A stretch of DNA of 47,967 nt from an uncultured Flavobacteriales bacterium (GTDB lineage: Bacteria > Bacteroidota > Bacteroidia > CAIKAF01). The position numbers and the translations under genes were made by a program. The notes under the pieces are model-generated. The model was given only the letters and a program-made list of their open reading frames with translations. It had not been told where the DNA came from and ran no database searches. Positions 2,819 to 47,967 of the stretch are shown piece after piece. The stretch's first letter is position 1; the number at the start of each line of letters is the position of its first letter. Location: contig CAILUT010000053.1 of NCBI GenBank assembly GCA_903837495.1, forward strand, positions 1-47,967, given 5' to 3'.

Positions 2819-4030
2819 TCAAGCGTCCAACCCGCTCAATTCAAACACCGTAATTTCAGGGCGAATCCCGACCCGGCCGCTATACCCTATGCAACCTGTA
2901 CCTCGGTTCACATACAGATGTTGTTTGTCTTGCGAGTACAATCCCGCCCATTGTTTGTACACGTACTGCGAAGGGCTCCACCGAAATCCCGGAATCTCCA
3001 CTCCAAACTGAAACCCATGGGTATGCCCCGACATCGTTAAGGCCACCCGCTTGCGCTGCAAAATCTGAGCCTCCCAGTGCGAAGGGTCATGCGACATCAA
3101 CAGAACACAGGCTTCGTCCGGTATGTTTTTCAGCGCTTTCCCCAAATCCCCATACCGTTTAAAGTTTAAGCGAGCGCCCCAGTTTTCAACCCCTGCCAAG
3201 TAAAGCGATTCCCCGCCAAATTCAGCCAATTTAATGTGTGAATTCAACAGCAAGTTCCAGCCCATTTGTGCCTGTATATCGTACATAGCCTGAAGGTTGG
3301 CCTGTTTCGACTCGGCATCAGGCCAGCGGTAATAATCGCCATAATCGTGGTTTCCCAGAACCGAATGCACTCCCATTGGGGCCGACAAGCCCGCTAAAAT
3401 CGAAGCAAAAGGCAAAACCTCGGCACTGGTATTGTTTACCAAATCACCGGTAAACAAAATCAAATCGGGCTGTTCTTTCATCACGCTGTCAACCATTTTC
3501 TGAAGGGTGTCCTTTTGCAGCACCGAACCGGTATGAATATCAGAAATCTGAACCACCTTCAGCAGGCCCAATTTTCGTGGAAACCCAGGGAGTTGAAGGC
3601 GTTTCCGAACCAATTGAAAATCGGAGGCGGTTTGCAGCACACCATAAACCAGGGTAAAAAAAGGTAGTGCTGCAGCCACAGCAAAGGTTTGCCGTAAAAA
3701 TTCCCGACGGCTTGCCTGCAAGTCCATTCCAACTACACCTGTTCCGCCCAACACATAAAACAGGTTGATGCTCCCGACCAAAAAAAAGGCGAAAACCTTT
3801 GATGCCATTAAAATAAATAAAAGGTTTCCCGCCCACAGCGGAGCGGTTCCCGGCAGCAAGGAACGCAGCATGGCGATTCCCAAAAGCAGAACAGGCAGGC
3901 CGAACCACAGGCAGGTAAACAATACAACATACTTAGGGGAAGGCCAGTGCCGCAGAAGTCGGAACAAATACACCTCAGAAAACACCCAAAAAGCCAAGAA
4001 TACAATGGCCAAAATCCAACGTGGATGCAT
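2819..4030 (-). CDS. Membrane-anchored metallophosphoesterase (YkuE/YaeI-like)
   Basis: A 403-residue protein with about four membrane segments in the first 130 residues, then a calcineurin-like phosphoesterase domain. All five metal-binding blocks are present: SDIH (163-166), GDLVN (195-199), GNHDY (226-230), MSHD (312-315) and SGHTHG (334-339). Enzymes of this type cleave phosphodiesters or phosphomonoesters at the membrane; the substrate here is unknown. Just before the last membrane segment is a twin-arginine-like SRREFLRQ block (about 107-114), which matches the Tat signals of soluble relatives but is internal here. The frame is open to 4240, but the upstream part overlaps the small membrane gene and looks non-coding; the ATG at 4030 is chosen. 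It follows the small membrane gene by 8 nt. Confidence 0.88.
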   Translation of the reverse strand: MHPRWILAIVFLAFWVFSEVYLFRLLRHWPSPKYVVLFTCLWFGLPVLLLGIAMLRSLLPGTAPLWAGNLLFILMASKVFAFFLVGSINLFYVLGGTGVVGMDLQASRREFLRQTFAVAAALPFFTLVYGVLQTASDFQLVRKRLQLPGFPRKLGLLKVVQISDIHTGSVLQKDTLQKMVDSVMKEQPDLILFTGDLVNNTSAEVLPFASILAGLSAPMGVHSVLGNHDYGDYYRWPDAESKQANLQAMYDIQAQMGWNLLLNSHIKLAEFGGESLYLAGVENWGARLNFKRYGDLGKALKNIPDEACVLLMSHDPSHWEAQILQRKRVALTMSGHTHGFQFGVEIPGFRWSPSQYVYKQWAGLYSQDKQHLYVNRGTGCIGYSGRVGIRPEITVFELSGLDA

Positions 4031-4038
4031 AAAAATAC

Positions 4039-4233
4039 CTATGAATGAAGCGAAAAATGTTTGATGAACAGCAGCAGCACAACGCCCAGCACTAAAAACA
4101 CAGCCAAACCAGTCAAATGCTGATAATGCACCCGAATTTCCTTCAAATCTTTCCAGTACAGCCAAGCCGTTATCCCCAAAAAAACCACCGCAAAAACCAC
4201 CGCAAAATACAGATGTCCAATACCAATGCTCAT
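4039..4233 (-). CDS. Small two-helix membrane protein, unknown function
   Basis: A 64-residue protein starting MSIGIGHLYFAVV, with two predicted membrane helices (about 6-25 and 42-59) linked by a short charged loop with the sequence WKDLKEIRVHYQ. It begins 4 nt after a perfect TATCTTTG promoter box and ends 8 nt before the metallophosphoesterase gene. The position supports a real gene that is first in a two-gene unit. No family is recognised; a role together with the phosphoesterase is inference from the operon. Confidence 0.65.
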   Translation of the reverse strand: MSIGIGHLYFAVVFAVVFLGITAWLYWKDLKEIRVHYQHLTGLAVFLVLGVVLLLFIKHFSLHS

Positions 4234-4237
4234 GCCG

Positions 4238-4245
4238 CAAAGATA
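4238..4245 (-). promoter_or_regulatory. TAnnTTTG promoter box for the small membrane gene and phosphoesterase
   Basis: The minus strand reads TATCTTTG, ending 4 nt before the ATG at 4233. This is one of several boxes in the window that sit directly against a start codon. Confidence 0.6.
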
Positions 4246-4310
4246 CAAGAATCGCCCCAAACTTCTGGGAATTACAGGTTAAAAATACAAGGCCTGAAAG
4301 GAATAAAGCA

Positions 4311-4452
4311 GGGCGGCTGTTCCGGCTATCGCGGGTAGTACGCAGGGCAAGGGGCGGCTGCAGTGGGCAGGCAGTAGCTCCTAAAGTCGCTCTGCCAGCC
4401 CACGCAGCCTGCCCCTTGCCCTTTGCGCGCTACCCCGCTCTATCCGGGCCGC
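4311..4452 (-). ncRNA. 143-nt structured repeat, copy D (candidate RNA element)
   Basis: One of five intergenic elements with a shared fold. Read on the minus strand it starts GCGGCCCGGATAGAG and ends with GCCGCCC. From outside in, the arms pair as GCGGC with GCCGC, GGGUAG with CUACCC, a C/A mismatch, GCGC with GCGU, then a copy-specific 12-bp stem (AGGGCAAGGGGC with GCCCCUUGCCCU), GGCUGC with GCAGCC, GUGGGC with GCCCAC, and GGCAG with CUGCC. The apical loop is GACUUUAGGA (4379-4388), 64 nt from the 5' end. It lies between the divergent small membrane gene and the gene at 4541. It most resembles copy E. Whether it is transcribed is unknown. Confidence 0.75.
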
Positions 4453-4514
4453 AAGCCCCCTCTCTATTTTAACCGAATTAGCCAAAGAATCCCCCCTAGC
4501 GTCATTCTTTTTAT

Positions 4515-4522
4515 TAGATTTG
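4515..4522 (+). promoter_or_regulatory. TAnnTTTG promoter box for the rsmD-coaD cluster
   Basis: TAGATTTG matches the Bacteroidota -7 element and lies 18 nt before the ATG at 4541. No clear TTG is seen at -33. Confidence 0.5.
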
Positions 4523-4540
4523 CCCAGCAAAAAAACAACC

Positions 4541-5335
4541 ATGAAAAATCTTTCATACTGGATATCAAAGCTTCTAATCCCCTCCTTATTTGCCCTGGCT
4601 GGATTGTTTATGCTGTTCACCGGGCTTAAACCCGGAAAATATCAATCGGCCCTCTACGTTTTTTCTAGTTTTTTAATGGTGGCGGGGTCGGCTGTTTGGA
4701 TTCTGCTCGTCACCGGCAAACTCAGCATGCCCTGGGTCAGAAAATACGCTGCACTCATTTTTATTCCTGCCCTTATTGTGATGGGAGGGATTGTTTACAG
4801 CATACGTCAAAGCATCCGGTTTGAAGAAATAAAAGTAGAACGCGAAAACGTCATTATAAATCGATTGTTAAAAATACGCGAAGCTCAATTGGCCTATAAA
4901 GAAGTAAAAGGCGAATTTGCGAACAACTTCAGCGCGCTGATTGATTTCCTAAAAAACGGCAAAACATTCGTTGTTAAAGTAGATGGGAATATTGACGACA
5001 CCCTGGCTGTTGCTCAAGGACGTGTTAAAATTGATTCCATTTGGGTTCCCATTCTTGGCTTAAAATACATTGAAACCTTCCCGCTTGATTCGCTGCGGTA
5101 TGTGCCTTTTGCCTTAGACCCAGAAACAAGAAAACCGTCCGGCGAAGAATTCTTGCTTGAAGCCGGCAAACTTGAAACACCCGAAGGCCTTGAAGTTCCT
5201 GTCTTCGCCGCCTCAACCAACTACGGCATCTTTCTCGAAGATTTGTTGAAAGAATATGGTAAATTTAGTGTGGACTCGGTTATTCAAGTAGGATCTATGA
5301 CCGAGCCAACCACCAACGGCAGCTGGCGCAATTAA
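4541..5335 (+). CDS. Conserved Bacteroidota membrane protein of unknown function
   Basis: A 264-residue protein with three N-terminal membrane helices (about 11-29, 37-57, 68-87), then a basic and helical linker ending in REAQLAYKEVKGEF, and a soluble C-terminal domain of about 150 residues. The LRYVPF block and the REAQLAYK block are ones I recall from an uncharacterised family found across Bacteroidota near rsmD and coaD; this is recollection, not a search. The frame is open to 4520 but the ATG at 4541 (MKNLSYW) fits the promoter box at 4515-4522 better. The stop is 2 nt before rsmD, so they are probably co-transcribed. The long soluble part probably faces the periplasm. Confidence 0.7.
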   Translation: MKNLSYWISKLLIPSLFALAGLFMLFTGLKPGKYQSALYVFSSFLMVAGSAVWILLVTGKLSMPWVRKYAALIFIPALIVMGGIVYSIRQSIRFEEIKVERENVIINRLLKIREAQLAYKEVKGEFANNFSALIDFLKNGKTFVVKVDGNIDDTLAVAQGRVKIDSIWVPILGLKYIETFPLDSLRYVPFALDPETRKPSGEEFLLEAGKLETPEGLEVPVFAASTNYGIFLEDLLKEYGKFSVDSVIQVGSMTEPTTNGSWRN

Positions 5336-10366: not shown

Positions 10367-10813
10367 TTAGCCTCCATTCACCGTAGGCCACAGCCCGCAG
10401 GCATGCAAGGCCAAACGCACGCCCAAATGATAGCCCTGTGTGCCGGCTCCGGCTATGCTGGCATTTACGCCAAGCGCTGTGATGCTTTGCCTACGGAATT
10501 CCTCTCTAGAAAAAATATGGGTAATGTGGACTTCGACCTTGTAGGTACCACAGGCGGTTAAGGCGTCGGACAAGGCGACCGAGCTGTGGGCAAAACCGCC
10601 GGGATTGATGATAAGTGCTTTGGCTTGAGCGGCTTGCTGCACCCAATCGATGAGCTCGCCTTCGTGGTTGGATTGAAAAAACCGAAAATGAATTTCAGGG
10701 AAAGCGGATTGCAATTCAGATTCCAATTGGGCCAAGGTGGTATGGCCATACTTTTCGGGCTCGCGGCTGCCCAGCAAGTTTAAATTGGGACCGTTGATAA
10801 CCCAAATTTCCAT
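10367..10813 (-). CDS. aroQ: Type II 3-dehydroquinate dehydratase
   Basis: A 148-residue enzyme of the shikimate pathway that dehydrates 3-dehydroquinate. The type II family signature is complete: NGPNLNLLG (residues 7-15), SREPEKYG with R17 and catalytic Y22, NHEGELIDW (49-57), INPGGFAHSS (69-78) and VEVHITHIFSREEFR with H96. Length is typical. The promoter box TACCTTTG ends 4 nt before the ATG. It is a single gene convergent with the glycosyltransferase, and diverges from the cystathionine beta-synthase gene across repeat element A. Confidence 0.95.
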   Translation of the reverse strand: MEIWVINGPNLNLLGSREPEKYGHTTLAQLESELQSAFPEIHFRFFQSNHEGELIDWVQQAAQAKALIINPGGFAHSSVALSDALTACGTYKVEVHITHIFSREEFRRQSITALGVNASIAGAGTQGYHLGVRLALHACGLWPTVNGG

Positions 10814-10825: not shown

Positions 10826-10868
10826 GTGGATTTATGGTATTTGAATGGATGAACGCAGAGTGTGGCCC

Positions 10869-11011
10869 GCGGCAGGGATTGAAGCAGGTAGCCCACAGGG
10901 GCGGTGGGGCTGGCGGGGCCGGGGCCAAAGAGCGACCGGAGGAAGCTACTTTGGCCCTTGCCCCGCCCCCCACGGCACCGAGGATTACCGCTGAAAGCCC
11001 GCAGCCGCCCC
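10869..11011 (+). ncRNA. 143-nt structured repeat, copy A (candidate RNA element)
   Basis: It begins GCGGCAGGGATTGAA and ends GCCGCCCC, followed by an A-rich run. Arms pair as GCGGC with GCCGC, GGUAG with UUACC, GUGGGG with CCCCAC, GCGGGGC with GCCCCGC, and GCCAAAG (10924-10930) with CUUUGGC (10949-10955). The apical loop GACCGGAGGA is at 10934-10943, 65 nt from the start. The central stem is unrelated in sequence to other copies but is self-complementary. It sits between the divergent aroQ and cystathionine beta-synthase genes, 67 nt upstream of the latter's promoter box. Confidence 0.75.
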
Positions 11012-11078
11012 AAAAATAAAAAGCCCATGCATGGCGGTGTTTGAACACTCAATCTTACTGCCTGTCGCGGGATTTAGC

Positions 11079-11086
11079 TACCTTTG
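11079..11086 (+). promoter_or_regulatory. TAnnTTTG promoter box for the cystathionine beta-synthase gene
   Basis: TACCTTTG, a perfect -7 element, lies 22 nt before the ATG at 11109. Confidence 0.55.
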
Positions 11087-11108
11087 CCAGCAACATTTAC
11101 GATTGCTC

Positions 11109-12470
11109 ATGTGGTGTAAAACTATTTTGGAAACCATTGGAAATACGCCGATGGTACAATTAAACAGAGTCGCAGCGGGCCTGCCGGCTACCGTGCTGGC
11201 GAAGGTAGAGACCTTTAATCCCGGCAACAGCATTAAAGACCGCATGGCGCTGAAAATGATAGAAGATGCCGAGGCCAATGGGCGGCTGAAACCCGGCGGA
11301 ACCATTATTGAAGGGACCAGCGGAAATACAGGCATGGGCCTGGCCATTGCTGCGATAATTAAAGGGTACAAATGCATTTTTACTACCACCGATAAGCAAT
11401 CGCAAGAGAAGATTGATGCATTGCGCGCCTTGGGAGCCGAAGTTATTGTGTGCCCAACCAATGTGGAACCCGAAGACCCCCGCTCCTACTACTCCGTTTC
11501 AAGCCGCTTGGTGGCAGAAGTTCCAAACGCATGGAAACCAAACCAATACGACAATCTGAGCAATTCGCAAGCGCACTACGAAAGCACCGGCCCAGAAATC
11601 TGGGAACAAACCGAAGGAAAAATCACCCATTTGGTGGTGGGGGTGGGCACCGGAGGTACCATTTCAGGAACGGCCCGCTACCTAAAAGAAAAGAACCCGA
11701 ACGTACAGATTTGGGGGATTGACACCTATGGTTCTGTATTTAAAAAATACCATGAAACGGGGGAATTCGATAAGAAAGAAATTTATCCGTACATCACCGA
11801 AGGCATTGGAGAAGATTTTTTGCCAGAGAATGTAGATTTTTCGTTGATTGACCGATTTGAAAAGGTAAGCGATAAAGATGCCGCCATATACACCCGTGAA
11901 ATTGCCCGAAACGAAGGAATTTTTGCGGGGAATTCGGCCGGGGCTGCAGTGGCGGGATTGCTTCAGCTTAAGCATTTATTGAAAGAAGGCGATGTGGTGG
12001 TGGTTATTTTTCATGACCATGGCATTCGGTACTTGGGGAAAATGTTCAACGACAATTGGATGCGCGACCGCGGATTTTTAGACCGCAAGCAATTGACGGT
12101 AAAAGACTTATTGGTTTCGGGCGTATTGGCAAAAGCCATCACTGTGCCTGTAGGGCAAACCACATCAGAGGTGGTACAGCTGATGCAAATGCAGGGGATT
12201 TCACAGGTTCCCGTTGTAGATGGAAATCGTTTGGTGGGCGCATTGACCGACAGCCGCTTGTTTGGTTTCTTGGTGCAAAAACCCGAATCACACGATACCC
12301 CTATTGCCGAAATCATGGAAAAACCCTTCCCGGTCATTTCGGCAGATTGTGAGCTAAATCAAGTGGGAAAAGAGTTCTCGAAAGAAACCCATGCGGTTCT
12401 AGTTAAAGATGGGATGGGGGAATACTACATTATGACCCGCACCGATTTGCTGACGCAATTGATAGGATAA
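11109..12470 (+). CDS. Pyridoxal-phosphate cystathionine beta-synthase with C-terminal CBS domains
   Basis: A 453-residue fold-type II PLP enzyme. Residues 1-320 form the catalytic part: NPGNSIKDRMA with the PLP-binding lysine K43, the EGTSGNTGMG substrate loop (68-77), and the phosphate-binding GVGTGGTISG. The last 130 residues hold two CBS repeats (AKAITVPVGQTTSEVVQ, ISQVPVVDG, then IMEKPFPVISAD), which separates it from plain cysteine synthase. It most likely joins serine and homocysteine to cystathionine; O-acetylserine use cannot be excluded. The CBS repeats suggest adenosyl-ligand regulation. The frame runs upstream to 11031, but the promoter box at 11079 and family N-terminus favour the ATG at 11109. 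The next gene follows by 4 nt. Confidence 0.88.
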   Translation: MWCKTILETIGNTPMVQLNRVAAGLPATVLAKVETFNPGNSIKDRMALKMIEDAEANGRLKPGGTIIEGTSGNTGMGLAIAAIIKGYKCIFTTTDKQSQEKIDALRALGAEVIVCPTNVEPEDPRSYYSVSSRLVAEVPNAWKPNQYDNLSNSQAHYESTGPEIWEQTEGKITHLVVGVGTGGTISGTARYLKEKNPNVQIWGIDTYGSVFKKYHETGEFDKKEIYPYITEGIGEDFLPENVDFSLIDRFEKVSDKDAAIYTREIARNEGIFAGNSAGAAVAGLLQLKHLLKEGDVVVVIFHDHGIRYLGKMFNDNWMRDRGFLDRKQLTVKDLLVSGVLAKAITVPVGQTTSEVVQLMQMQGISQVPVVDGNRLVGALTDSRLFGFLVQKPESHDTPIAEIMEKPFPVISADCELNQVGKEFSKETHAVLVKDGMGEYYIMTRTDLLTQLIG

Positions 12471-19418: not shown

Positions 19419-20258
19419 ATGACAATCTCACTGCGAACCATTCTGTTTTTTGCAATCTTAGGGCCTTTTGCCCGGGCGCAAAACTATCCGACCGGTGCTA
19501 AATCGGCATCGTTGGGACACGCCTCGGTGGCTCTAAGCGACCTTTGGTCTTCGTACAACAACCAAGCAGGGCTCGCCTTTCTAGAAGCTCCAGAAGTGGG
19601 CGCCTTTGTTGAAAATCGGTTTTTAATGCAAGAATTAAACGCCCAAGGCTTGGCTTATGCCATGCCCTTCAAAAAAATGGGCGGAACCCTGGGCATTAAT
19701 TTATACCGCTTTGGTTATTCCAATTTCAACGACAATAAGTTGGGGCTAACCTTTGCGAAAAAATTTGGAAAAGTATTCTCGGCAGGCATTCAGTTAAACC
19801 TCCATTATTTTCAGCAAGGCGGGGCATATGAGTCCATATTAACGGCCACGGGCGAATTGTCGGTCTTGCTGTATTTAGCCGAAAACTGGACCTTAGGAGC
19901 CCATGTCTTTAATCCTACCCGCAGTTCTATGGCTAGCTTTGACCGCGAAAAAGTACCCACCGTATTTCGGTTGGGAACGGCCTATGCCTTTAGCGATAAA
20001 GTTCAGGCTACCTTAGAAATTGAAAAAGACTTGGTGTACGATCCAACATTCCGAGCAGGCATAGAATACAAACCGGGCAAAAAAATATCCATCCGAGCTG
20101 GGATAAATTCAAACCCCATTTCGCCCGCCTTTGGTCTGGGTTTGCATTTGGGCGATTTTGTTCTGGATGCCGCTTCCGCATGGCATCAAACGCTGGGATT
20201 CAACCCTCAAGCTTCTCTAAGTTATCGGTTTAACCGACCTAAAAGCCGCAAAAAATGA
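19419..20258 (+). CDS. PorV/PorQ-like outer-membrane barrel protein
   Basis: A 279-residue protein with a signal peptide (1-20, ending PFARAQ), then GAKSASLGHASVALSDLWSSYNNQAGLAFL, which is the opening signature of the PorV/PorQ family (UPF0164-like outer-membrane barrels). Strand-like segments alternate throughout and the last strand ends SYRFNR. It begins 1 nt after purE and its stop overlaps the following gene (ATGA). It is paired with a helix-hairpin-helix barrel protein, a combination I associate with Bacteroidota outer-membrane gene sets; PorV itself acts as shuttle in type IX secretion, but a T9SS role for this gene is not shown. Confidence 0.75.
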   Translation: MTISLRTILFFAILGPFARAQNYPTGAKSASLGHASVALSDLWSSYNNQAGLAFLEAPEVGAFVENRFLMQELNAQGLAYAMPFKKMGGTLGINLYRFGYSNFNDNKLGLTFAKKFGKVFSAGIQLNLHYFQQGGAYESILTATGELSVLLYLAENWTLGAHVFNPTRSSMASFDREKVPTVFRLGTAYAFSDKVQATLEIEKDLVYDPTFRAGIEYKPGKKISIRAGINSNPISPAFGLGLHLGDFVLDAASAWHQTLGFNPQASLSYRFNRPKSRKK

Positions 20259-22375
20259 GATTGATCCTGCGCGGCTGCTTCCTGATTTTAGCCTTTCTAC
20301 TCACAGACCTGCTTCCTGCACAATCGGGAAGTGGCGACCCCAAAAAAGAAAACCTGATTGAACGGCTTATTGAAACCATTACCGAACAAAGCGATGCAGA
20401 AATAGATTACACGGAGTTTGTTGAAGATCTAAGCTTCTTCTACGACAATCCGATTAACCTGAACAACGCCAAACCTGAAGATTTAAGGCGTTTGCATTTG
20501 CTCAGTGAACTCCAAATTCAAAACCTGGCAAGCTACCGCCGTTTGTATGGAGACCTTTTAAGCATGTATGAGGTGAGCCTGATCAAAGGCTGGGACCAAG
20601 AAGTCATCTATTCCCTTCTGCCCTTTTTGATTGTTGCTCCCGTTAAAGAAAAACAAACATTGAAGTTTAAAAACGTGGTAAAGTATGGCAAGCACGAACT
20701 CATTGGCCGCTATTACGATGTTTTAGAACCGCAGCAAGGGTACATTACCCAACCGGGCGACAGCCTTCCTGCTTATTTAGGGTCTTCGTATCAAATCTTT
20801 ACCCGCTATCGGTTTAAATACAAAGACCGCATTAGCATCGGGTTTACCGCCGAAAAAGACCGAGGAGAGGAATGGTTTGGGGGCTCTCAGCCCCAGGGAT
20901 TCGACTTTTATTCGGCGCATTTCATGCTGAAAGATTTTGGGCCGATTAAAACCTTGGTTATCGGCGATTTTCAAACCCAATTTGGGCAGGGCTTAACTTT
21001 GTGGAACGGCATAGGATCCAGAAAAACAGCCTATGCCATGAATATTAAACGGAACGCAGCCGGAATTCGGGCCTATACGGCCACAAATCAATTTACATTC
21101 AACCGCGGCATTGCCGCCACAATCAACTTTGGCTTTTTGTCTCCCGTCTTAAAAAACCTAGACCTAACCGGCTTCGCCTCGCACAAACCCATTGATGGAA
21201 ACGCTGCTGAGTTAGATACCCTAACCGGCGAGGCCTTAGAGGTTTCTTCTTTTTTGTTGAGCGGGCTGCACCGCACGGCCGCTGAACTCGCAAAAAAAAA
21301 CACCATCGACGAAACGGTCCTGGGCGGCAACATTACCTTTCGAGGCAAAACCTTTAAGCTAGGGGCAACTGCCGTTCAAACCATGTTCTCGGCTCCATTC
21401 CAGCCCTCAGAACAATTGTACAACAAATACCGATTTGCAGGTGACCGGCTGTTCAACGCGGGGGTAGATTACGATTGGCTGATCCGAAAACTGCACCTCT
21501 TTGGCGAATTCTCCATCAGCGATAACGGAGGATTGGCCATGCTGCAAGGCATGCAAATTAGCCTGCATTCCAACCTCAACTTCTCTGCTTTATACCGAAA
21601 TTTTTCAAAAGAATACCAAAACCTAAAATCCAACGCCGTTTCCGACCGTTTTGGCACACAAAACGAAGAGGGTTTGTATGTTGGATTTGAAGCCAGCCCA
21701 TTTAAAAAAGTGAAAGTGCAAGGCTACGTTGACCTATTCGCCTACCCTTGGCTCCGTTCCAACATCGCATATCCATCGAAAGGGTACGAATACTTGGTTC
21801 AAGCGTCCTTTATTCCCAATCGAAACGTTGAAATGTACCTTCGATTCCGGCATCAAAACCGGCCTGAAAATGCAACAGGAATTGAAACTGGCCCTGCGGA
21901 AGTCATTCATTTTCAGCGGCAAAACTACCGCTGGAACATCACCGTACGGGTAAACAAAGAAATTCAATTGCGCAACCGCTTGGAGTGGGTAACTGTTAAC
22001 CGACCCGACAAAGCCTTTGAAATGGGTTTTATGATGTACCAAGACTTGATTTACAAACCTGCGAAGCTACCCCTTGATTTCTCCGGACGCATCGGTCTGT
22101 TCAGCACACAGGGCTCAGACGCCCGCGTTTACGCGTACGAAAACGACGTGCTGTACAGTTTTACCGTGCCCGGTTTTTCAGGAACAGGAATGCGGACATA
22201 TTTAAATGTAAAATGGGAGGTCCGACCCAACCTTACCCTGTGGTTGCGGTGGTCGCAAACTTTTTACAGCGACCGTTCGGTCATCAGCTCTGGCAACGAA
22301 GGAATTGAAAGCGATGCACGCAACGACCTTCGAATTCAGCTGCGCTACACCTTCCGTGCAGGGGGGAACCGCTAA
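20255..22375 (+). CDS. Helix-hairpin-helix outer-membrane barrel protein
   Basis: A 706-residue protein with a signal peptide (hydrophobic 8-20, ending LLPAQ). Residues about 66-107 form a ComEA-like helix-hairpin-helix region (PINLNNAKPEDLRRLHLL and a QNLASYRRLYG helix). From about 150 to the end is a long series of beta strands, many with alternating aromatic residues, ending RIQLRYTFRAGGNR, as expected for an outer-membrane barrel. This HHH-plus-barrel architecture is known in Bacteroidota without a defined role. It overlaps the PorV-like gene by four bases, so the two are probably made together. Confidence 0.75.
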   Translation: MRLILRGCFLILAFLLTDLLPAQSGSGDPKKENLIERLIETITEQSDAEIDYTEFVEDLSFFYDNPINLNNAKPEDLRRLHLLSELQIQNLASYRRLYGDLLSMYEVSLIKGWDQEVIYSLLPFLIVAPVKEKQTLKFKNVVKYGKHELIGRYYDVLEPQQGYITQPGDSLPAYLGSSYQIFTRYRFKYKDRISIGFTAEKDRGEEWFGGSQPQGFDFYSAHFMLKDFGPIKTLVIGDFQTQFGQGLTLWNGIGSRKTAYAMNIKRNAAGIRAYTATNQFTFNRGIAATINFGFLSPVLKNLDLTGFASHKPIDGNAAELDTLTGEALEVSSFLLSGLHRTAAELAKKNTIDETVLGGNITFRGKTFKLGATAVQTMFSAPFQPSEQLYNKYRFAGDRLFNAGVDYDWLIRKLHLFGEFSISDNGGLAMLQGMQISLHSNLNFSALYRNFSKEYQNLKSNAVSDRFGTQNEEGLYVGFEASPFKKVKVQGYVDLFAYPWLRSNIAYPSKGYEYLVQASFIPNRNVEMYLRFRHQNRPENATGIETGPAEVIHFQRQNYRWNITVRVNKEIQLRNRLEWVTVNRPDKAFEMGFMMYQDLIYKPAKLPLDFSGRIGLFSTQGSDARVYAYENDVLYSFTVPGFSGTGMRTYLNVKWEVRPNLTLWLRWSQTFYSDRSVISSGNEGIESDARNDLRIQLRYTFRAGGNR

Positions 22376-22391
22376 ATTACTCCCTTTTTTT

Positions 22392-22534
22392 GGGCGGCCT
22401 TTCCGGCTATCGCGGGTAGTACGCCGCTCCAGGCCAGGGGGGCAGTGGGTGGGCAGTAGCTCCTAAAGTCGCTCTGCCAACCCACGCTCCCCAGGCCTGT
22501 AAGCGTGCGCGCTACCCTGCTCTATCCGGGCCGC
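22392..22534 (-). ncRNA. 143-nt structured repeat, copy E (candidate RNA element)
   Basis: Minus-strand element starting GCGGCCCGGATAGAG and ending GGCCGCCC, followed by A7. Paired arms are GCGGCC with GGCCGC, GGGUAG with CUACCC, CAGGCC with GGCCUG, GUGGGU with ACCCAC, and GGCAG-type bases around the loop GACUUUAGGA (22461-22470), 64 nt from the 5' end. Most similar to copy D. It starts 17 bases after the helix-hairpin-helix gene stop and faces copy B across about 220 bases. Confidence 0.75.
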
Positions 22535-22755
22535 GGCCCCTCAAATCATTCGGCCAACACCATTCAAGATGGGCGCTAAGATTGATATTTAAACCAAAGA
22601 ACCTGAAAAACAGAAGCAAGGGCCGGTATTCCTTGGAATGTAAAAAAACAGGTGGCTTGGGAAGGCATGCAGGTTGGCATCGATTCGCCAAAGCAAAGCC
22701 CCGCGCCGAAGGACTTACCGGGTAAAAAACGCAACACAAGGTAAAAAGTACGACT
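22535..22755. other. Gap between the two facing repeat elements; no gene seen
   Basis: About 220 bases between elements E and B. I find no open frame with family resemblance and no promoter box; the two frames that cross it are low-complexity. It is only notable as the spacer of an inverted pair of elements. Confidence 0.4.
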
Positions 22756-22898
22756 GCGGCAGGGATTGAACCGAGTAGCCCGCAAGGCCGGCAGCGCTGG
22801 GGCCGCGAGCTGCGGAGGCGACCTTGGGAGCCCCCGAAAAGCCGCTGGCCCCACCGCTGCTGGACGCGGACTACCGGTGAAAGCCCGGCGGCCGCCCC
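22756..22898 (+). ncRNA. 143-nt structured repeat, copy B (candidate RNA element)
   Basis: Begins GCGGCAGGGATTGAA, ends GCCGCCCC and is followed by A7. Pairs are GCGGC with GCCGC; GUAG (22775-22778) with CUAC (22871-22874), then C/A mismatch, then CCGC (22780-22783) with GCGG (22866-22869); UGGGGCC with GGCCCCA; CAGCG with CGCUG; CGG and GGC with GCC and CCG around the loop GACCUUGGGA (22820-22829), 64 nt from the start. It lies between the helix-hairpin-helix gene and the rpoC terminator. Confidence 0.75.
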
Positions 22899-22963
22899 AA
22901 AAAAACAGCTTGAAACGGAAGGGAAATCATTCAAAATCAAGCTGAACTTAGGTAGAAAATGGC

Positions 22964-23016: not shown

Positions 23017-26000
23017 TTAAACCACAGCTGTACCTTTCCGGATCAACTCTTGAGTGTCTGCATTTGAATTTTTGAGGTTATCAAAGTCCTCTTGATTGTA
23101 AACCACAGACGTACGGTAGTCTTTAAGACCGGTGCCTGCAGGAATCAAATGGCCCACAATAACGTTTTCTTTCAGACCGTCTAGGTAATCGACCTTGGCT
23201 GATACAGCAGCTTCGTTCAGAACCTTGGTGGTTTCTTGGAAAGAGGCGGCTGAAATCCAGCTGTCGGTTTGCAGAGAGGCGCGTGTAATGCCCTGAAGAA
23301 CAGGGCGAGAGGTTGCGGCTTCGGCATCAATTACCTCGATGGGTTTCAATCCCTTGCGTCGCAGAGAAGAATTTTCGTCGCGCAGCTGACGGGTTGAAAT
23401 TAGGTTGTCTTCCAGAAAATCGGTTGAATCGCCAGGGTTAACCACCTTTTTCATGCCATAAATGGAATCGTTTTTCAACTGGAACTCCATTTTGTTCACC
23501 AAGGAATTTTCAAGCATGGTGGTATCACCGCGGTCAATGATTTCAACTTTCTTCATCATTTGACGAACAATGACTTCAAAGTGTTTGTCGTTGATTTTAA
23601 CACCCTGAGTGCGGTACACTTCCTGAATTTCGTTCACCAAGTATTCCTGAACGGCGGTTGGGCCTTTAATGGCTAGGATGTCTGAAGGTGTAACGGCCCC
23701 ATCGGTTAGGGGTTGTCCCGCTTTCACGTAATCGTTTTCCTGCACCAAAATGTGTTTGGTCATAGAAACCAAATAGGTTTTTTGCTCGCCCGATTTAGGT
23801 TGGATTAAGATCTCGCGGTTTCCGCGTTTAATGCCACCAAAGCTTACCAAACCATCAACTTGAGAGACCACGGCTGGATTTGAGGGATTCCGAGCTTCGA
23901 AAAGTTCAGTAACCCGAGGCAGACCTCCGGTGATATCGCCGGTTTTACCGCCTTGACGTGGAATTTTAACAAGAATGGCACCTGCTTTGAGTTGGTCGCC
24001 ATCGCTAACCATAATGTGGGCAGCGGTAGGAAGGGAATATTCCCTAAGCACATCGCCCTTTTTAGATTTGATTTTGATGGTTGGGTTCCGAGTTTTATCT
24101 CGGCGGTCTGTAATAACCTTCTCAACGAAGCCCGTTTGCTCATCTAATTCTTCGCGGTAAGTTAAGCCTTCAATAATGTTTTCAAAGGACACTTTACCAT
24201 CAAATTCCGAGATAATAACGGCATTCCATGGATCCCATTCGCAAATTACATCGCCTTTGCTGACTTTAGTGCCTTCAAGGATTTTGAGTGTACTGCCATA
24301 CGGAATGGTACCGGTAGTCAAAATCATCCCTGTATTTTCGTCCATCAAACGCATTTCAGCGGTACGGCCAATAACAAACAGGTCGGTTTCTTCGGTGGTT
24401 GGATTTAATGATTCTACATAACGCAGTTCATCAATTTGCAGGATACCGTCGTATTTTGCCACCAAGCGGTTGGCGGCAGAACTACCACCGGCCACGCCAC
24501 CTACGTGGAACGTACGAAGCGTCAGCTGAGTGCCGGGTTCGCCAATGGATTGAGCTGCAATAACACCTGCGGCCTCGCCCCTTTGCACCATGCGTCCTGT
24601 GGCTAAGTTGCGTCCATAGCATTTGCCGCATACTCCGCGTTTAGCCTCACAGGTCAATACCGAGCGAATATCTACCGATTCGATGGGCGAATTTTCGACC
24701 AAGGTAGCCAGAGCTTCATCGATTTCTTGGGCGGCTTTGATAATAATTTCGCCAGTGTTGGGGTGAACTACATCTTCAAGGGCAACGCGTCCTAGAATGC
24801 GCTCATAGAGTGTTTCTTTGACTTCGTCGTTTACTTTTAGGGCCGTCATGCTGAGGCCTCTCAAGGTACCGCAATCCACTTCGTTGATAATAACATCTTG
24901 GGCTACGTCAACCAAGCGGCGGGTCAGATAACCGGCATCGGCCGTTTTAAGTGCAGTATCGGCCAGACCTTTACGGGCACCGTGGGTAGAGATAAAGTAC
25001 TCAAGAATAGAAAGCCCCTCTTTGAAATTAGAAAGGATGGGGTTTTCGATAATTTCTCCACCGGTATCGCCCGATTTTTGTGGTTTAGCCATCAAGCCGC
25101 GCATTCCGCACAACTGCCGAATTTGTTCTTGCGAGCCCCTTGCACCTGAGTGAAGCATCATGTAAACAGGGTTAAAACCTTGTTTGTCTTCGCTGATTTG
25201 CTTCATCACAATTTGGGTCAACGAAATGTTGGTTGAGGTCCAAATGTCAATGATTTTATTGTAGCGTTCGGTATTGGTAATGAAGCCCATGTTGTAGTTG
25301 CTCCAAACCTCTTCTACTTGCTCTTGGGCATTTTCAATCAACACTGCCTTTTCTTCTGGAATAACCAAATCGTCAATCAGGAAGGACAAACCGCCCCGGA
25401 AGGCCATTGCAAAACCGATTTCTTTGATGCTATCTAGGAATTTTGCGGCCACGGCCAAGTTGGTTTTCTTAAAGACATCACCAATAATATCGCGCAGCGA
25501 TTTTTTGGTCAACAGTTGATTGATGAAACCGTACTCCTTTGGAACCACTTGGTTAAAAAGCACTCGGCCAACGGTTGTTTCGGTCAATAGATTAACCAGG
25601 CTTCCATCGGGCTGCCGCACATCCACTTTCACCTTAATGCCGGCGTGCAGGTCAATTTTTCGCTCGTTGTAGGCAATGATTACCTCTTGGGGCGAATAAA
25701 ACAGCATGCCTTCGCCTTTGACTTCGTGTTCCGGCGTGTTTTTGCGTTCTTTGGTGATGTAATAGAGGCCCAAGACCATGTCTTGAGAAGGAACAGCGAT
25801 GGGGGCTCCGTTGGCGGGGTTAATGATGTTGTGGGCACCCAGCATAAGGACTTGTGCTTCCAGAATGGCGGTATTTCCTAAAGGAACGTGCACCGCCATT
25901 TGGTCGCCATCAAAGTCGGCATTGAATGCGGTACAAGAGAGCGGGTGAAGTTGAATGGCTTTTCCTTCGATCAATTTAGGCTGGAAGGCCTGAATACCGA

Positions 26001-27333
26001 GTCGGTGAAGCGTTGGGGCCCGGTTCAAAAGAACGGGGTGTCCTTTAAGAACCGATTCGAGGATTTCCCAGATCACCGATTCACGGCGGTCAACCATTTT
26101 TTTGGCGGACTTAACGGTCTTAACCAAACCGCGCTGAATCAGCTTGCGGATAATAAACGGTTTGAACAATTCGGCCGCCATGTCTTTGGGAAGGCCACAT
26201 TCGTGCAACTGCAGGTCGGGGCCAACCACAATAACAGACCGGGCTGAGTAATCCACCCGCTTGCCCAAGAGGTTTTGACGAAAACGTCCTTGCTTGCCTT
26301 TCAAAGAATCGGAAAGGGATTTTAGGGCCCGATTTGAATCGGTTTTAACAGCGGAAGATTTCCGGCTGTTGTCAAAAAGAGCATCTACGGCCTCTTGGAG
26401 CATCCGCTTTTCGTTGCGCAGAATCACCTCAGGGGCTTTAATTTCGATAAGCCGTTTTAGGCGGTTGTTGCGAATAATAACCCGACGGTACAAATCGTTT
26501 AAGTCAGAAGTAGCAAAACGACCTCCGTCAAGAGGAACAAGGGGACGTAAATCGGGAGGAATAATCGGAATAACCTTAATGACCATCCATTCGGGACGGT
26601 TGTTGGTTCTTAGATTAGCGTCTTTGAAAGATTCAACCACATGCAAACGCTTTAGGGCTTCTTGCCTACGTTGCTGAGATTTGGTGTCGTGGGATTGGCG
26701 TTCGAGTTCCTTTCCTAATTTTTCAAAATCAACGCGCGAAAGCATATCGTACAAAGCATCTCCCCCCATTTTAGCGATAAACTTATTGGGGTCGCTGTCG
26801 TCTAAGTGTTGATTTTCTTTTGGAAGAGTTTCTAAAATTTCAAAGTATTCTTCTTCCGAAAGAAAATCGTGCTCATTGATTTCGCCGGCCTTAGCACCTG
26901 CCTGAATTACGACGTATTTTTCGTAGTAAATAATGGCTTCCAATTTTTTGGTTGGAAGGCCTAACAGCAAGCCAATTTTATTGGGCAGCGAACGAAAATA
27001 CCAAATGTGAGCCACCGGTACGGTTAGCATAATATGCCCGGTTCTTTCGCGGCGTACTTTCTTTTCGGTTACCTCAACCCCACAACGGTCGCAAACAATC
27101 CCTTTGTAGCGAATGCCTTTGTATTTGCCGCATGCACACTGCCAGTCTTTAACGGGTCCAAAAATGCGTTCGCAAAAAAGACCATCTCGCTCGGGTTTAA
27201 AGGTCCGATAGTTAATGGTTTCAGGTTTGGTAACTTCACCGCGGCTTTGCTCCAAGATGTAATCTGGAGAAGCTAAGCTGATTGTTATTTTGGAGAAGTC
27301 TCCAGTAGTTTTGGCTTCGGTTTGAAAGGCCAT
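23017..27333 (-). CDS. rpoC: RNA polymerase beta' subunit
   Basis: A 1438-residue protein, the normal size for Bacteroidota RpoC. The N-terminal zinc ribbon is at C66, C68, C81 and C84; the active-site NADFDGDQM motif lies near residue 475; the [13 protein letters not shown] bridge-helix/trigger region and the AKYDGI segment follow. The C-terminal [15 protein letters not shown] helix is typical. It forms the catalytic centre of transcription with RpoB and holds the catalytic magnesium. It starts 34 nt after rpoB and ends in a strong terminator. Confidence 0.98.
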
Positions 27334-34224: not shown

Positions 34225-34298
34225 TGGCACGGGTGCCTGGATTCGAACCAAGATCAACGGTTTTGGAGACCGCTATTCTACCGTTGAACTACACCCGT
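34225..34298 (-). tRNA. trpT: tRNA-Trp (CCA anticodon)
   Basis: Full cloverleaf on the minus strand. Acceptor ACGGGTG pairs with CACCCGT, the anticodon loop contains CCA between GGTCT and AACCG-type stems, and the GGTTCGAATCC T-arm is standard. The 3' CCA is encoded (34225-34227). The T6 of the tuf terminator directly abuts its first base. It lies between tuf and secE, as in many bacteria. Confidence 0.97.
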
Positions 34299-34338
34299 AA
34301 AAAACCGATTGGCACCTCTACTACGAGGAGCCAATCGG
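34299..34338 (-). terminator. Rho-independent terminator between tuf and tRNA-Trp
   Basis: Minus strand stem CCGATTGGC, one-base bulge, CCTC, six-base loop, GAGG, bulge, GCCAATCGG (34305-34338), followed by T6. The T-run ends exactly at the first tRNA-Trp base. It begins 19 nt after the tuf stop. Confidence 0.9.
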
Positions 34339-34357
34339 ACGAATTGATTGGTTTAAA

Positions 34358-35545
34358 TTACTTAATAATTTCAGTTACCTGGCCGGCACCTACCGTTCTG
34401 CCGCCTTCACGGATAGCAAAACGAAGACCTTTATCCATTGCAACGGGAACGATCAAAGTAACATTGATGGATACGTTATCTCCAGGCATAACCATTTCAC
34501 GACCGGCTTCCAAAAGGATTTCTCCAGTAACGTCGGTAGTTCTTAGGTAGAACTGTGGACGGTAGCGGTTTTGGAAAGGCGTGTGGCGACCACCTTCTTC
34601 TTTCTTCAAAACGTAGATTTCAGCTTTGAATTCAGTGTGGGGAGTGATTGAACCTGGCTTAGCGATAACCATACCGCGGCGAATGTTGTTTTTGTCGATG
34701 CCGCGCAGCAGAAGCCCTACGTTATCGCCAGCTTCGCCGGTTGAAAGAATTTTGCGAAACATTTCAACACCTGTAACAACAGACTTCATTTTGCCTTCTT
34801 GCATACCGATGATTTCGACTTCTTCGCCAGAGTTGATAACACCTGTTTCAATACGACCTGTAGCAACGGTTCCGCGGCCAGTGATGGAGAACACGTCTTC
34901 AACAGGCATCAAGAAAGGTTTTTCGCGTTCGCGAGGTGGAACAGGGATGTATTCATCAACAGCTGTCATCAATTCGCGTATGGTTTCAACCCACTTGGCA
35001 TCGCCATTCAGGCCACCTAGGGCAGAGCCTTGAATAACAGGTATATTATCGCCGTCAAAATTGTAGAAGCTAAGAAGTTCGCGAATTTCCATTTCGACCA
35101 ATTCCAAAAGTTCTGGGTCGTCAACGGCATCCACTTTATTCATGAACACAACAATTTTCGGAACACCTACTTGACGGGCAAGCAGAATGTGTTCACGGGT
35201 TTGAGGCATAGGGCCATCGGTTGCAGCTACAACCAAAATAGCTCCATCCATTTGAGCGGCACCTGTAACCATGTTTTTCACATAGTCAGCGTGACCTGGA
35301 CAGTCAACGTGAGCGTAGTGACGGTTAGCGGTTTCATACTCAACGTGGCTGGTATTGATTGTAATACCACGCTCTTTTTCTTCAGGGGCATTGTCGATTG
35401 AATCGAATGACCGAGCTTGTGTATGACCGTCACCTGCCAAAACAGAAGTGATAGCAGCGGTCAAAGTGGTTTTTCCGTGGTCAACGTGACCAATGGTACC
35501 AATGTTTAGGTGCGGTTTTGTCCGCGCGAAGTTCTCTTTTGCCAT
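34358..35545 (-). CDS. tuf: Elongation factor Tu
   Basis: A 395-residue GTPase that delivers aminoacyl-tRNA to the ribosome. G1 GHVDHGKT (19-26), the switch DCPGH (81-85) and NKVD (136-139) are present, followed by domains 2 and 3 ([14 protein letters not shown] and the [11 protein letters not shown] tail). Single copy in this window. It is preceded by four tRNA genes and followed by a terminator, so part of its transcripts end before secE. Confidence 0.98.
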
Positions 35546-35590
35546 TTTTAGAGATTTAGAAACGGTTGAAATTAAGGGTTAATTATTCAG

Positions 35591-35663
<73 letters not shown>

Positions 35664-35696
35664 AATTCCATAAAGAACGCGTGCCACTTGGGACTT

Positions 35697-35773
<77 letters not shown>

Positions 35774-35796
35774 TTGGAATAATTCATAGCGGGTTG

Positions 35797-35804
35797 CAAA
35801 AGTA
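35797..35804 (-). promoter_or_regulatory. TAnnTTTG promoter box before tRNA-Gly
   Basis: The minus strand reads TACTTTTG, with a TTG on the minus strand (35825-35827) at about 20 nt spacing. It suggests a second promoter within the tRNA-tuf cluster. Confidence 0.5.
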
Positions 35805-35848
35805 GAAACTCTTACAATCAAATGCAATAGCATCGCTAAAAATTATAG

Positions 35849-35930
35849 TGGGGAGAGCAGGATTCGAACCTGCGAAGCCGTTGGCAACAGATTTACAGTC
35901 TGTCCTCGTTGACCGCTTGAGTATCTCCCC
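35849..35930 (-). tRNA. tRNA-Tyr (GTA anticodon)
   Basis: 82-nt class II cloverleaf with a long variable arm. Acceptor GGGGAGA pairs with TCTCCCC; anticodon GTA between CAGA and TCTG. CCA not encoded. Confidence 0.97.
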
Positions 35931-35943
35931 AAGCTAAAAAAAG

Positions 35944-36017
35944 AGCCGATGGAGGGATTCGAACCCCCGACCAGCTGATTACAAATCAGCTGCTCTGGCC
36001 AGCTGAGCTACATCGGC
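35944..36017 (-). tRNA. tRNA-Thr (TGT anticodon)
   Basis: 74-nt cloverleaf, acceptor GCCGATG with CATCGGC, anticodon TGT between GCTGA and TCAGC. First gene of the cluster; it has its own promoter box. Its acceptor arm is almost the same as that of the tRNA-Thr(GGT) downstream. Confidence 0.97.
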
Positions 36018-36034
36018 GTATATACAGCGGGGTG

Positions 36035-36063
36035 CAAAGGTAGAATTATTTTAAATAAATCAA
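36035..36063 (-). promoter_or_regulatory. Promoter of the tRNA-tuf operon (TTG and TAnnTTTG boxes)
   Basis: Minus strand: TTG at 36063-36061, 18 nt, then TACCTTTG at 36042-36035. Both elements of the Bacteroidota promoter are at normal spacing, 17 nt before tRNA-Thr. Confidence 0.75.
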
Positions 36064-36158
36064 AAAAGGGCGCAGCAATTTTATTTTTTTTGGGGGTAGA
36101 GATACAATCGGTCGTCTTTCATGGGTGTGGTTTTGTTGCAGGGCCTTTAATGCAAAGC

Positions 36159-36184
36159 AACGATGGCCCCGAAGGGCCACCGTT
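36159..36184 (-). terminator. Hairpin with UUCG loop after RNase P RNA, probable terminator or processing site
   Basis: An 11-bp stem (AACGGTGGCCC with GGGCCATCGTT, one G-U) closed by a UUCG tetraloop starts right after the RNase P 3' end. Only a weak UUU follows, so it is not a standard rho-independent terminator. Confidence 0.55.
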
Positions 36185-36532
36185 GGGTTTTAATAAGCCG
36201 GGTTCTGTCTAGATCTGCCATTTATCTGGGATGCAAGTCGCCTTGCACCTCGTTCAACCTACCCGTAAAGTTGACACAAACGTGTCGGACCAAGCCAGGC
36301 CTCAAACTTTACCTATTTGGTTTTTCAGCCTGTGGGGTTTACCCCGCCATTTGTCGCCAAATTGCGGTGTGAGCTCTTACCTCACATTTTCACCTTAACC
36401 CGGCAAGCCGGGATGTTTGTTTTCTGTGGCACTTTCCGTCGCCTCACGGCGCCTTCCCGTTAGGAAGCACAGTGGCCTTTTGCTGCCCGGACTTTCCTCA
36501 TGCTTGCAAAAGCACGCGGCAGATTAAAAACC
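36185..36532 (-). ncRNA. rnpB: RNase P RNA (class A)
   Basis: About 348 nt. The universal GAGGAAAGTCCGGGC near the 5' end, the AACGGGAAGGCG segment, GGTAAGAGCTCAC and the 3' ACAGAACCCGGCTTA are all present on the minus strand. The P1 helix pairs GGUUUU with AAAACC at the ends, placing the ends at about 36532 and 36185. This RNA is the catalytic subunit that trims tRNA 5' leaders; here it is close to four tRNA genes. Its promoter box lies only 3-4 nt before the predicted 5' end. Confidence 0.97.
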
Positions 36533-36535
36533 AGT

Positions 36536-47615: not shown

Positions 47616-47826
47616 GATTGGAGATTGGGGGCAGGATTTTGGCTAAAGGTGGCTGAATTTTGAAGATTGTTGATTGCAAGTGGGGATGAGATTTGTTCCA
47701 AGATTTTTAAGAACCTACGGGAAGGCCTAGATGGGCGCGATTTCAAACCAGAGAACCGTAAAATTTTCACATGTGGATGAACGCCTTAAACCCAATTTCA
47801 AATCCCACACGACAAACGGCTTCGAA
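47616..47826. other. Downstream gap without a recognised gene
   Basis: About 210 bases between the NadR-type gene and repeat copy C. No family-like frame, promoter box or terminator seen. Confidence 0.4.
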
Positions 47827-47967
47827 GCGGCAGGGATTGACGAGGCTACCCCGCAAGGGTGCCGAAGCCTGGCCCGCTAGGTGCGGAGGCGACGTTAGGA
47901 GCCCCCGCAAACCAGCTGGGCCAGCCTTTCGGCAACCGCGGAGTAGCCCGGAAAGCCCGGCTGCCGC
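47827..47967 (+). ncRNA. 143-nt structured repeat, copy C (reaches the window edge)
   Basis: Starts GCGGCAGGGATTGAC and runs to CTGCCGC at the last base; 141 nt are visible and perhaps 3 are lost. Pairs: GCGGC with GCCGC; GGCUAC (47844-47849) with GUAGCC (47943-47948), C/A mismatch, CCGC with GCGG; UGCCGAA with UUCGGCA; CUGGCCC with GGGCCAG; GCGG (47883-47886) with CCGC (47905-47908) around the loop GACGUUAGGA (47891-47900), 64 nt from the start. The second stem is base-swapped relative to copy B. Confidence 0.75.

Follow-up and report, generated by a model that had tools for sequence, protein, structure and literature searches.

Flavo-1 RNA (Rfam RF01705) was described by Weinberg et al. in 2010 (PMC2864571). 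Rfam lists it as an sRNA without a known function, and according to a review it is one of the most abundant families of sRNA (PMC9029176). In the transcriptome of F. psychrophilum, Flavo-1 matches lie indistinctly in sense or antisense and many of them fall outside any transcript (PMC9723704). Another relevant group is formed by the REP, BIME and REPIN repeats; among the RAYT transposases, subclass 2.6 of Bacteroidetes was reported with "atypical secondary structures" (PMC6006769). Here, we analysed a dispersed hairpin element present in a window of 47,967 nt, that is, the whole stretch of DNA under study, and compared it with both groups. Searching the literature with sequence strings retrieved unrelated primers only, and literature on attC/integrons and on Bacteroidota repeats held nothing on the present element.

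An earlier note, made from the sequence alone, had reported five copies of this element. On searching the window with a covariance model, we found exactly five copies, each with an E value of ~4e-21 or below: all those previously reported were found again, and no further one came up. The model was made of 38 copies with an RNAalifold structure and a short calibration, and it included four of the five window copies (47824-47967 was left out). The copies, with their neighbouring genes (named from Pfam) and the parts of copy B (read from the sequence), are the following.

4310-4455, minus strand: copy A, complete, model match of 119.7 bits (E 3.7e-26), between the divergent genes for a calcineurin-like phosphoesterase (2819-4240, minus) and an unknown gene (4520-5335, plus)
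10866-11013, plus strand: copy B, complete, model match of 97.7 bits (E 4.1e-21), between the divergent genes DHquinase_II (10367-10813, minus) and PALP/CBS (11031-12470, plus)
10869-10873, plus strand: 5' arm of the outermost stem of copy B, the invariant GCGGC, pairing with GCCGC at 11004-11008
10876-10882, plus strand: GGATTGA block of copy B, equivalent to the GAUuGa block of Flavo-1
10934-10943, plus strand: apical loop of copy B, GAC-CGGA-GGA (GAC-NNNN-GGA in the family)
10993-10999, plus strand: GAAAGCC block of copy B, equivalent to the GgAaAGC block of Flavo-1
11004-11008, plus strand: 3' arm of the outermost stem of copy B, GCCGC
11012-11016, plus strand: A-tract 3' of copy B, found after most copies
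22391-22537, minus strand: copy C, model match of 115.3 bits, half of a head-to-head pair with copy D, immediately 3' of the gene at 20255-22375 (plus) and antisense to it
22753-22899, plus strand: copy D, model match of 129.8 bits, the other half of that pair, downstream of rpoC (23017-27333, minus) and antisense to it
47824-47967, plus strand: copy E, model match of 120.4 bits, flagged as cut at its 3' end, of the commonest genomic subtype

As a correction to the earlier note, the copy cut by the edge is copy E. That the window stops within a copy of the commonest subtype points to the repeat as the cause of the assembly break. As a separate observation, on the minus strand at 34228-36535, RNase P RNA (36178-36535) adjoins a cluster of four tRNAs (35591-36017), and a fifth tRNA lies at 34228-34298.

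Each copy is a hairpin of ~143 nt (143-149 nt) of constant length, with an outer stem GCGGC/GCCGC. The hairpin base, GGATwGA/GAwAGCC, holds fixed A.G and G.A mismatches; above it come a second stem, interrupted by a fixed C.A mismatch, then a middle stem that varies, and finally the apex GAC-NNNN-GGA. Length, ends, both blocks and loop were all as first described. The four loop bases, in 130 sampled copies, were TTTA (64), CTTG (30), TTCA (11), GTTA (7), GCGA (5) and others. The conserved unit proved a little wider than had been noted: GGCCY precedes GCGGC, and GCCGCCC is followed by an A-tract, positions +14 to +24 being ~40-74% A; a run of at least five A near the 3' end was found in 103 of 200 copies, versus 8.5% of random 31-mers. 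The compensatory stem changes claimed from the five copies were real, since both sides had changed at 26 of the 49 predicted pairs. Likewise, among 38 diverse copies from the genus, 90.5% of pairing cells were paired; shuffling the columns gave 70.1%, and none of 500 shuffles reached the observed value. The score for covariation was 0.484 versus 0.132 in shuffles (0/500) and 0.04-0.10 for slid partners. As a further correction, one G-U pair sits inside stem II of the copy at 10869.

Copies were counted with the pattern GGATWGA-N95-125-GAWAGCC, using the reversed pattern as a control. In the 2.5-Mb source genome (G000, a freshwater Bacteroidota), the pattern matched 196 times and the control once, which is far beyond chance. 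The view of the earlier note that the element is dispersed and its fold conserved was supported. The congeners (G001-G005) have ~90-210 copies each: we obtained 212 matches in G002, 151 in G003 and 197 in G005, and in G001 and G004 the element takes a variant form, with at least 92 matches in G001 and 45 within 800 kb of G004. In stretches of G000, G002, G004 and G005, intergenic gaps held 195 of 200 copies (simple ORF call, elements masked). These gaps fell into classes at frequencies near those of all gaps, 42 of the 195 copies lying between divergent genes. On the A-tract (3') side, an opposing gene had its stop codon at a median distance of 26 nt, and on the 5' side the median was 82 nt; the stop codon of opposing genes lay within 30 nt of the 3' side in 61 of 112 cases. 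The long-gap pattern also matched in viral contigs (87 stretches), but it is loose and chance matches are expected.

The earlier note had taken the pair swaps to mean that the fold, not the sequence, was selected; selection of an RNA fold was not supported. The stems were almost purely Watson-Crick. On the plus strand, G-U made up 85 of 5860 stem pairs (1.5%), whereas the same material gave 8.5% for tRNAs and 8% for RNase P. For the minus strand the share was 5.1%, a part of which comes from the fixed C.A and A.C mismatches, seen as G-U on that strand. Outside the fixed sites, G/T and A/C mismatches were similarly rare (24 and about 16). In 13 ortholog pairs, we counted 37 double Watson-Crick changes, both directions included, and single changes that led to G/T in 8 cases, to A/C in 9 and to other mismatches in 44, which gives no preference for G-U over A-C. 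Where columns flipped from G-C to C-G, no intermediates were seen. G-U was equally scarce in a small set of Flavo-1-like copies taken from other genera, with 4 G/T and 6 A/C in ~330 pairs. Moreover, the element was indifferent to the direction of transcription: between tandem genes, it lay in sense 41 times and in antisense 55 times (p = 0.18). We conclude that complementarity is maintained at the DNA level, either because a DNA hairpin is selected or because one arm serves as the template for repair of the other. Copy exchange was rejected as the sole cause of the double changes: most of them were single base pairs absent from the other sampled copies, and some selection for pairing must therefore be assumed. 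The GC-rich stems could partly account for the low G-U. Besides, conserved purine mismatches on one strand would be a trait of functional RNA too, and this counts against the DNA-hairpin reading.

Comparison of orthologous sites showed that the element is stable between close species and turns over across the genus. Between G000 and G005, sites were occupied in 15/15 and 14/14 cases; an earlier test based on the pattern had given 19/19, with one copy falling outside the pattern but keeping its length. Between G002 and G005, 10 sites were present and one was cleanly empty in G005, next to an intact terminator (G002:C6:8136 versus G005:C4:86202-86262). At this empty site no target-site duplication was identified, the flanks being too diverged to read one. 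Between G004 and G005, no site was shared and three were empty. In two ortholog pairs (G000:C31:145771 versus G005:C5:113090, and G000:C3:29656 versus G005:C3:91061), the inner module had given way to the commonest genomic type and the locus-specific outer stem had been kept. These pairs are direct evidence that copies exchange sequence.

Neighbouring copies obeyed an orientation rule. Pairs less than 600 nt apart were head-to-head in 9 of 9 cases, from six independent loci, the window example being 22391-22537 (minus) and 22753-22899 (plus). Among neighbours less than 6 kb apart, inverted pairs amounted to 27/31 in G005, 9/10 in G004, 27/31 in G000, 27/28 in G002 and 9/10 in G001, that is, ~90%. 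These counts are interdependent for G000, G002 and G005, which share loci, whereas G005 and G004 share no tested site; in G000, G001 and G002 they rest on lists of pattern matches. Within 10 kb, G005 and G004 together gave 53 inverted neighbours out of 63, and beyond this distance orientation was near random, except in G001 (13/16 at 10-20 kb). A possibility was that the rule reflected a coupling between the orientation of elements and that of genes. This was rejected by a permutation preserving the coupling, in which 30.4 +/- 3.8 inverted neighbours of 61 were expected versus 51 observed (0/2000). The +- and -+ neighbours were equally common, and lag-2 neighbours were random in orientation. 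Most simply, direct copies close to each other would be lost through deletion of the interval between them, a reading that agrees with copy exchange. Simple deletion of direct pairs predicts a shortage of close neighbours; gap lengths showed only a slight one, which counts against the deletion reading. Inverted pairs may instead be actively preferred.

We then related the element to Flavo-1. At the gathering score (42 bits), Flavo-1 had no match in the window, copy B had no match to it at E <= 10, and there was none in the G000 and G002 genomes; a direct Rfam match of the window copies was rejected, as only microRNA noise was returned. Sub-threshold RF01705 matches appeared, however, in relatives from other families of the class (L153 with an E value of 3.6e-5, L131, L137 and L146). 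In the alignment, GGATwGA/GAwAGCC with its A.G and G.A mismatches corresponds to ccGAUuGaAGc ... GgAaAGCggG of Flavo-1. The covariance model R1, built on 38 genus copies, matched L115 (2e-6), L146 (E 4e-6), L253 (8e-5) and L131 (4.5e-4). L131, L146 and L153 were intermediates scoring with both models, L153 doing so with R1 at an E value of 0.055 only. L253 is a bridge sequence, GCGGCCCCGATAGC...GATAGCGGGAAATGCCGCCC-AAAAAAA. At L146 (G129:C12, ~1-440), units repeated in tandem every ~89 nt each carry a truncated copy (GCGTGAGGGATAGAAGcGGATAGCCCG...GGGGCACGCCC), and one full-length hairpin stands inside the array. In Algibacter and Mariniflexile (Flavobacteriaceae), the long-gap pattern coincided with Flavo-1 matches above the gathering score. 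Because intermediates match both models and the pattern falls on above-threshold Flavo-1 matches, the element can be regarded as a long GC-rich relative of Flavo-1. We place it beside Flavo-1 as a long, derived variant, a non-member by Rfam's own threshold. The relatives that the earlier note mentioned from other Bacteroidota do exist. As to its proviso that the copies might belong to a known Rfam family, Rfam thresholds were not reached, yet the copies grade into Flavo-1. Of 149 genomes of the class, 56 contained Flavo-1, against 0 of 14 controls, and several genomes had at least 20 matches with only 29 candidates scored per genome; hence Flavo-1 itself is a dispersed repeat.

Collectively, these data make it probable that the element is a dispersed, high-copy, REP-like DNA hairpin repeat of the long Flavo-1 lineage, whose copies exchange sequence and whose close direct copies are purged. 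Constraint would act on a DNA hairpin, formed in single-stranded DNA during replication or as a cruciform, rather than on a transcript. A putative protein may recognise the fixed loop together with the conserved A.G, tandem G.A and C.A mismatches. Frequent recombination among copies could then remove close direct copies along with their interval and leave inverted neighbours. We more tentatively propose that Flavo-1 at large represents phylum-wide, RAYT-independent DNA hairpin repeats, which in one clade have grown to 145 nt and ~200 copies, with module exchange and the inverted-neighbour rule; this would point to a hairpin-processing or recombination system in Bacteroidota.

A more specific form of the favoured reading is a non-autonomous transposon, moved as a single-stranded DNA hairpin by an HUH or other nuclease acting in trans and now almost immobile in the clade. 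Site turnover across the genus with its one clean empty site, the head-to-head dimers, whose short spacer recalls REPINs, and the report of RAYT subclass 2.6 with its atypical structures all speak for it. We nevertheless consider it possible but rather doubtful, since no target duplication was seen and the Y1/RAYT transposase (PF01797) had no match in G000 and G005; elsewhere, only 1 of 33 Y1 loci had a copy of the element in the flanking sequence retrieved. Neither a transposase nor any other protein that could mobilise the element was found. A RAYT/REPtron association was rejected, no Y1 gene being flanked by elements, including in Flavo-1-bearing genomes.

A structured non-coding RNA family, of the Rfam class of Flavo-1, with many transcribed loci and selection on the RNA fold, would account for the strong covariation, for the tandem G.A mismatches on one strand and for the stable RNA tetraloop types at the apex (CTTG 30, GCGA 5 and GTGA 2 of 130), and the relative Flavo-1 is listed as an sRNA. 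Given the very few G-U pairs without preference over A-C, the G-C to C-G swaps without intermediates, the random orientation to genes and, in F. psychrophilum, matches independent of transcripts, we think it unlikely. Still less likely, to our mind, is a chromosome-organising or topological site, similar to BIMEs, at which inverted pairs a few kb apart form domains or bind a nucleoid protein. The inverted-neighbour rule holding up to 6-10 kb in five genomes and the conserved positions between close species would suit such a role, but the equal frequency of +- and -+ neighbours leaves no domain polarity, and both the turnover across the genus and the random lag-2 neighbours argue against it. 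Finally, the closeness of the 3' side to the stop codons of opposing genes might suggest transcription terminators or stabilisers of mRNA 3' ends. This is very improbable: 42 of 195 copies lie between divergent genes, T-runs are not enriched near the 3' end and, at the empty-site locus, the element sits past an existing intrinsic terminator. An intrinsic terminator proper (GC hairpin and T-run) was rejected, as an A-tract stands in place of the T-run.

If Flavo-1 really is a DNA repeat, covariation alone has misled its annotation. The comparison of G-U with A-C states, combined with strand indifference, would then make a test for further orphan "RNA motifs". As for the inverted-neighbour rule, it is a new and sharp genome-wide regularity, which brings to light recombination among short, dispersed repeats in one of the major phyla of bacteria.

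With respect to known systems, the element resembles Flavo-1 in its end blocks (GAUuGaAGc ... GgAaAGC), in the A.G and G.A mismatches at the hairpin base, in the 3' A-tract, in its dispersed multi-copy occurrence in Bacteroidota and in the intermediates matching both models. It differs in that the inner stem of the window copies is about twice the 76-position Flavo-1 model, and these copies are very GC-rich, with the extra GAC-NNNN-GGA apex. With REP, BIME and REPIN sequences (PMC3733652, PMC6006769), it shares hundreds of intergenic palindromic copies indifferent to gene orientation and, as regards REPINs, the head-to-head dimers with a short spacer. In contrast, the element is ~145 nt long versus 20-40 nt for REPs and lacks the conserved GTAG or CGTC foot, and the high-copy genomes G000 and G005 have no RAYT gene, nor is there any element-flanked RAYT.
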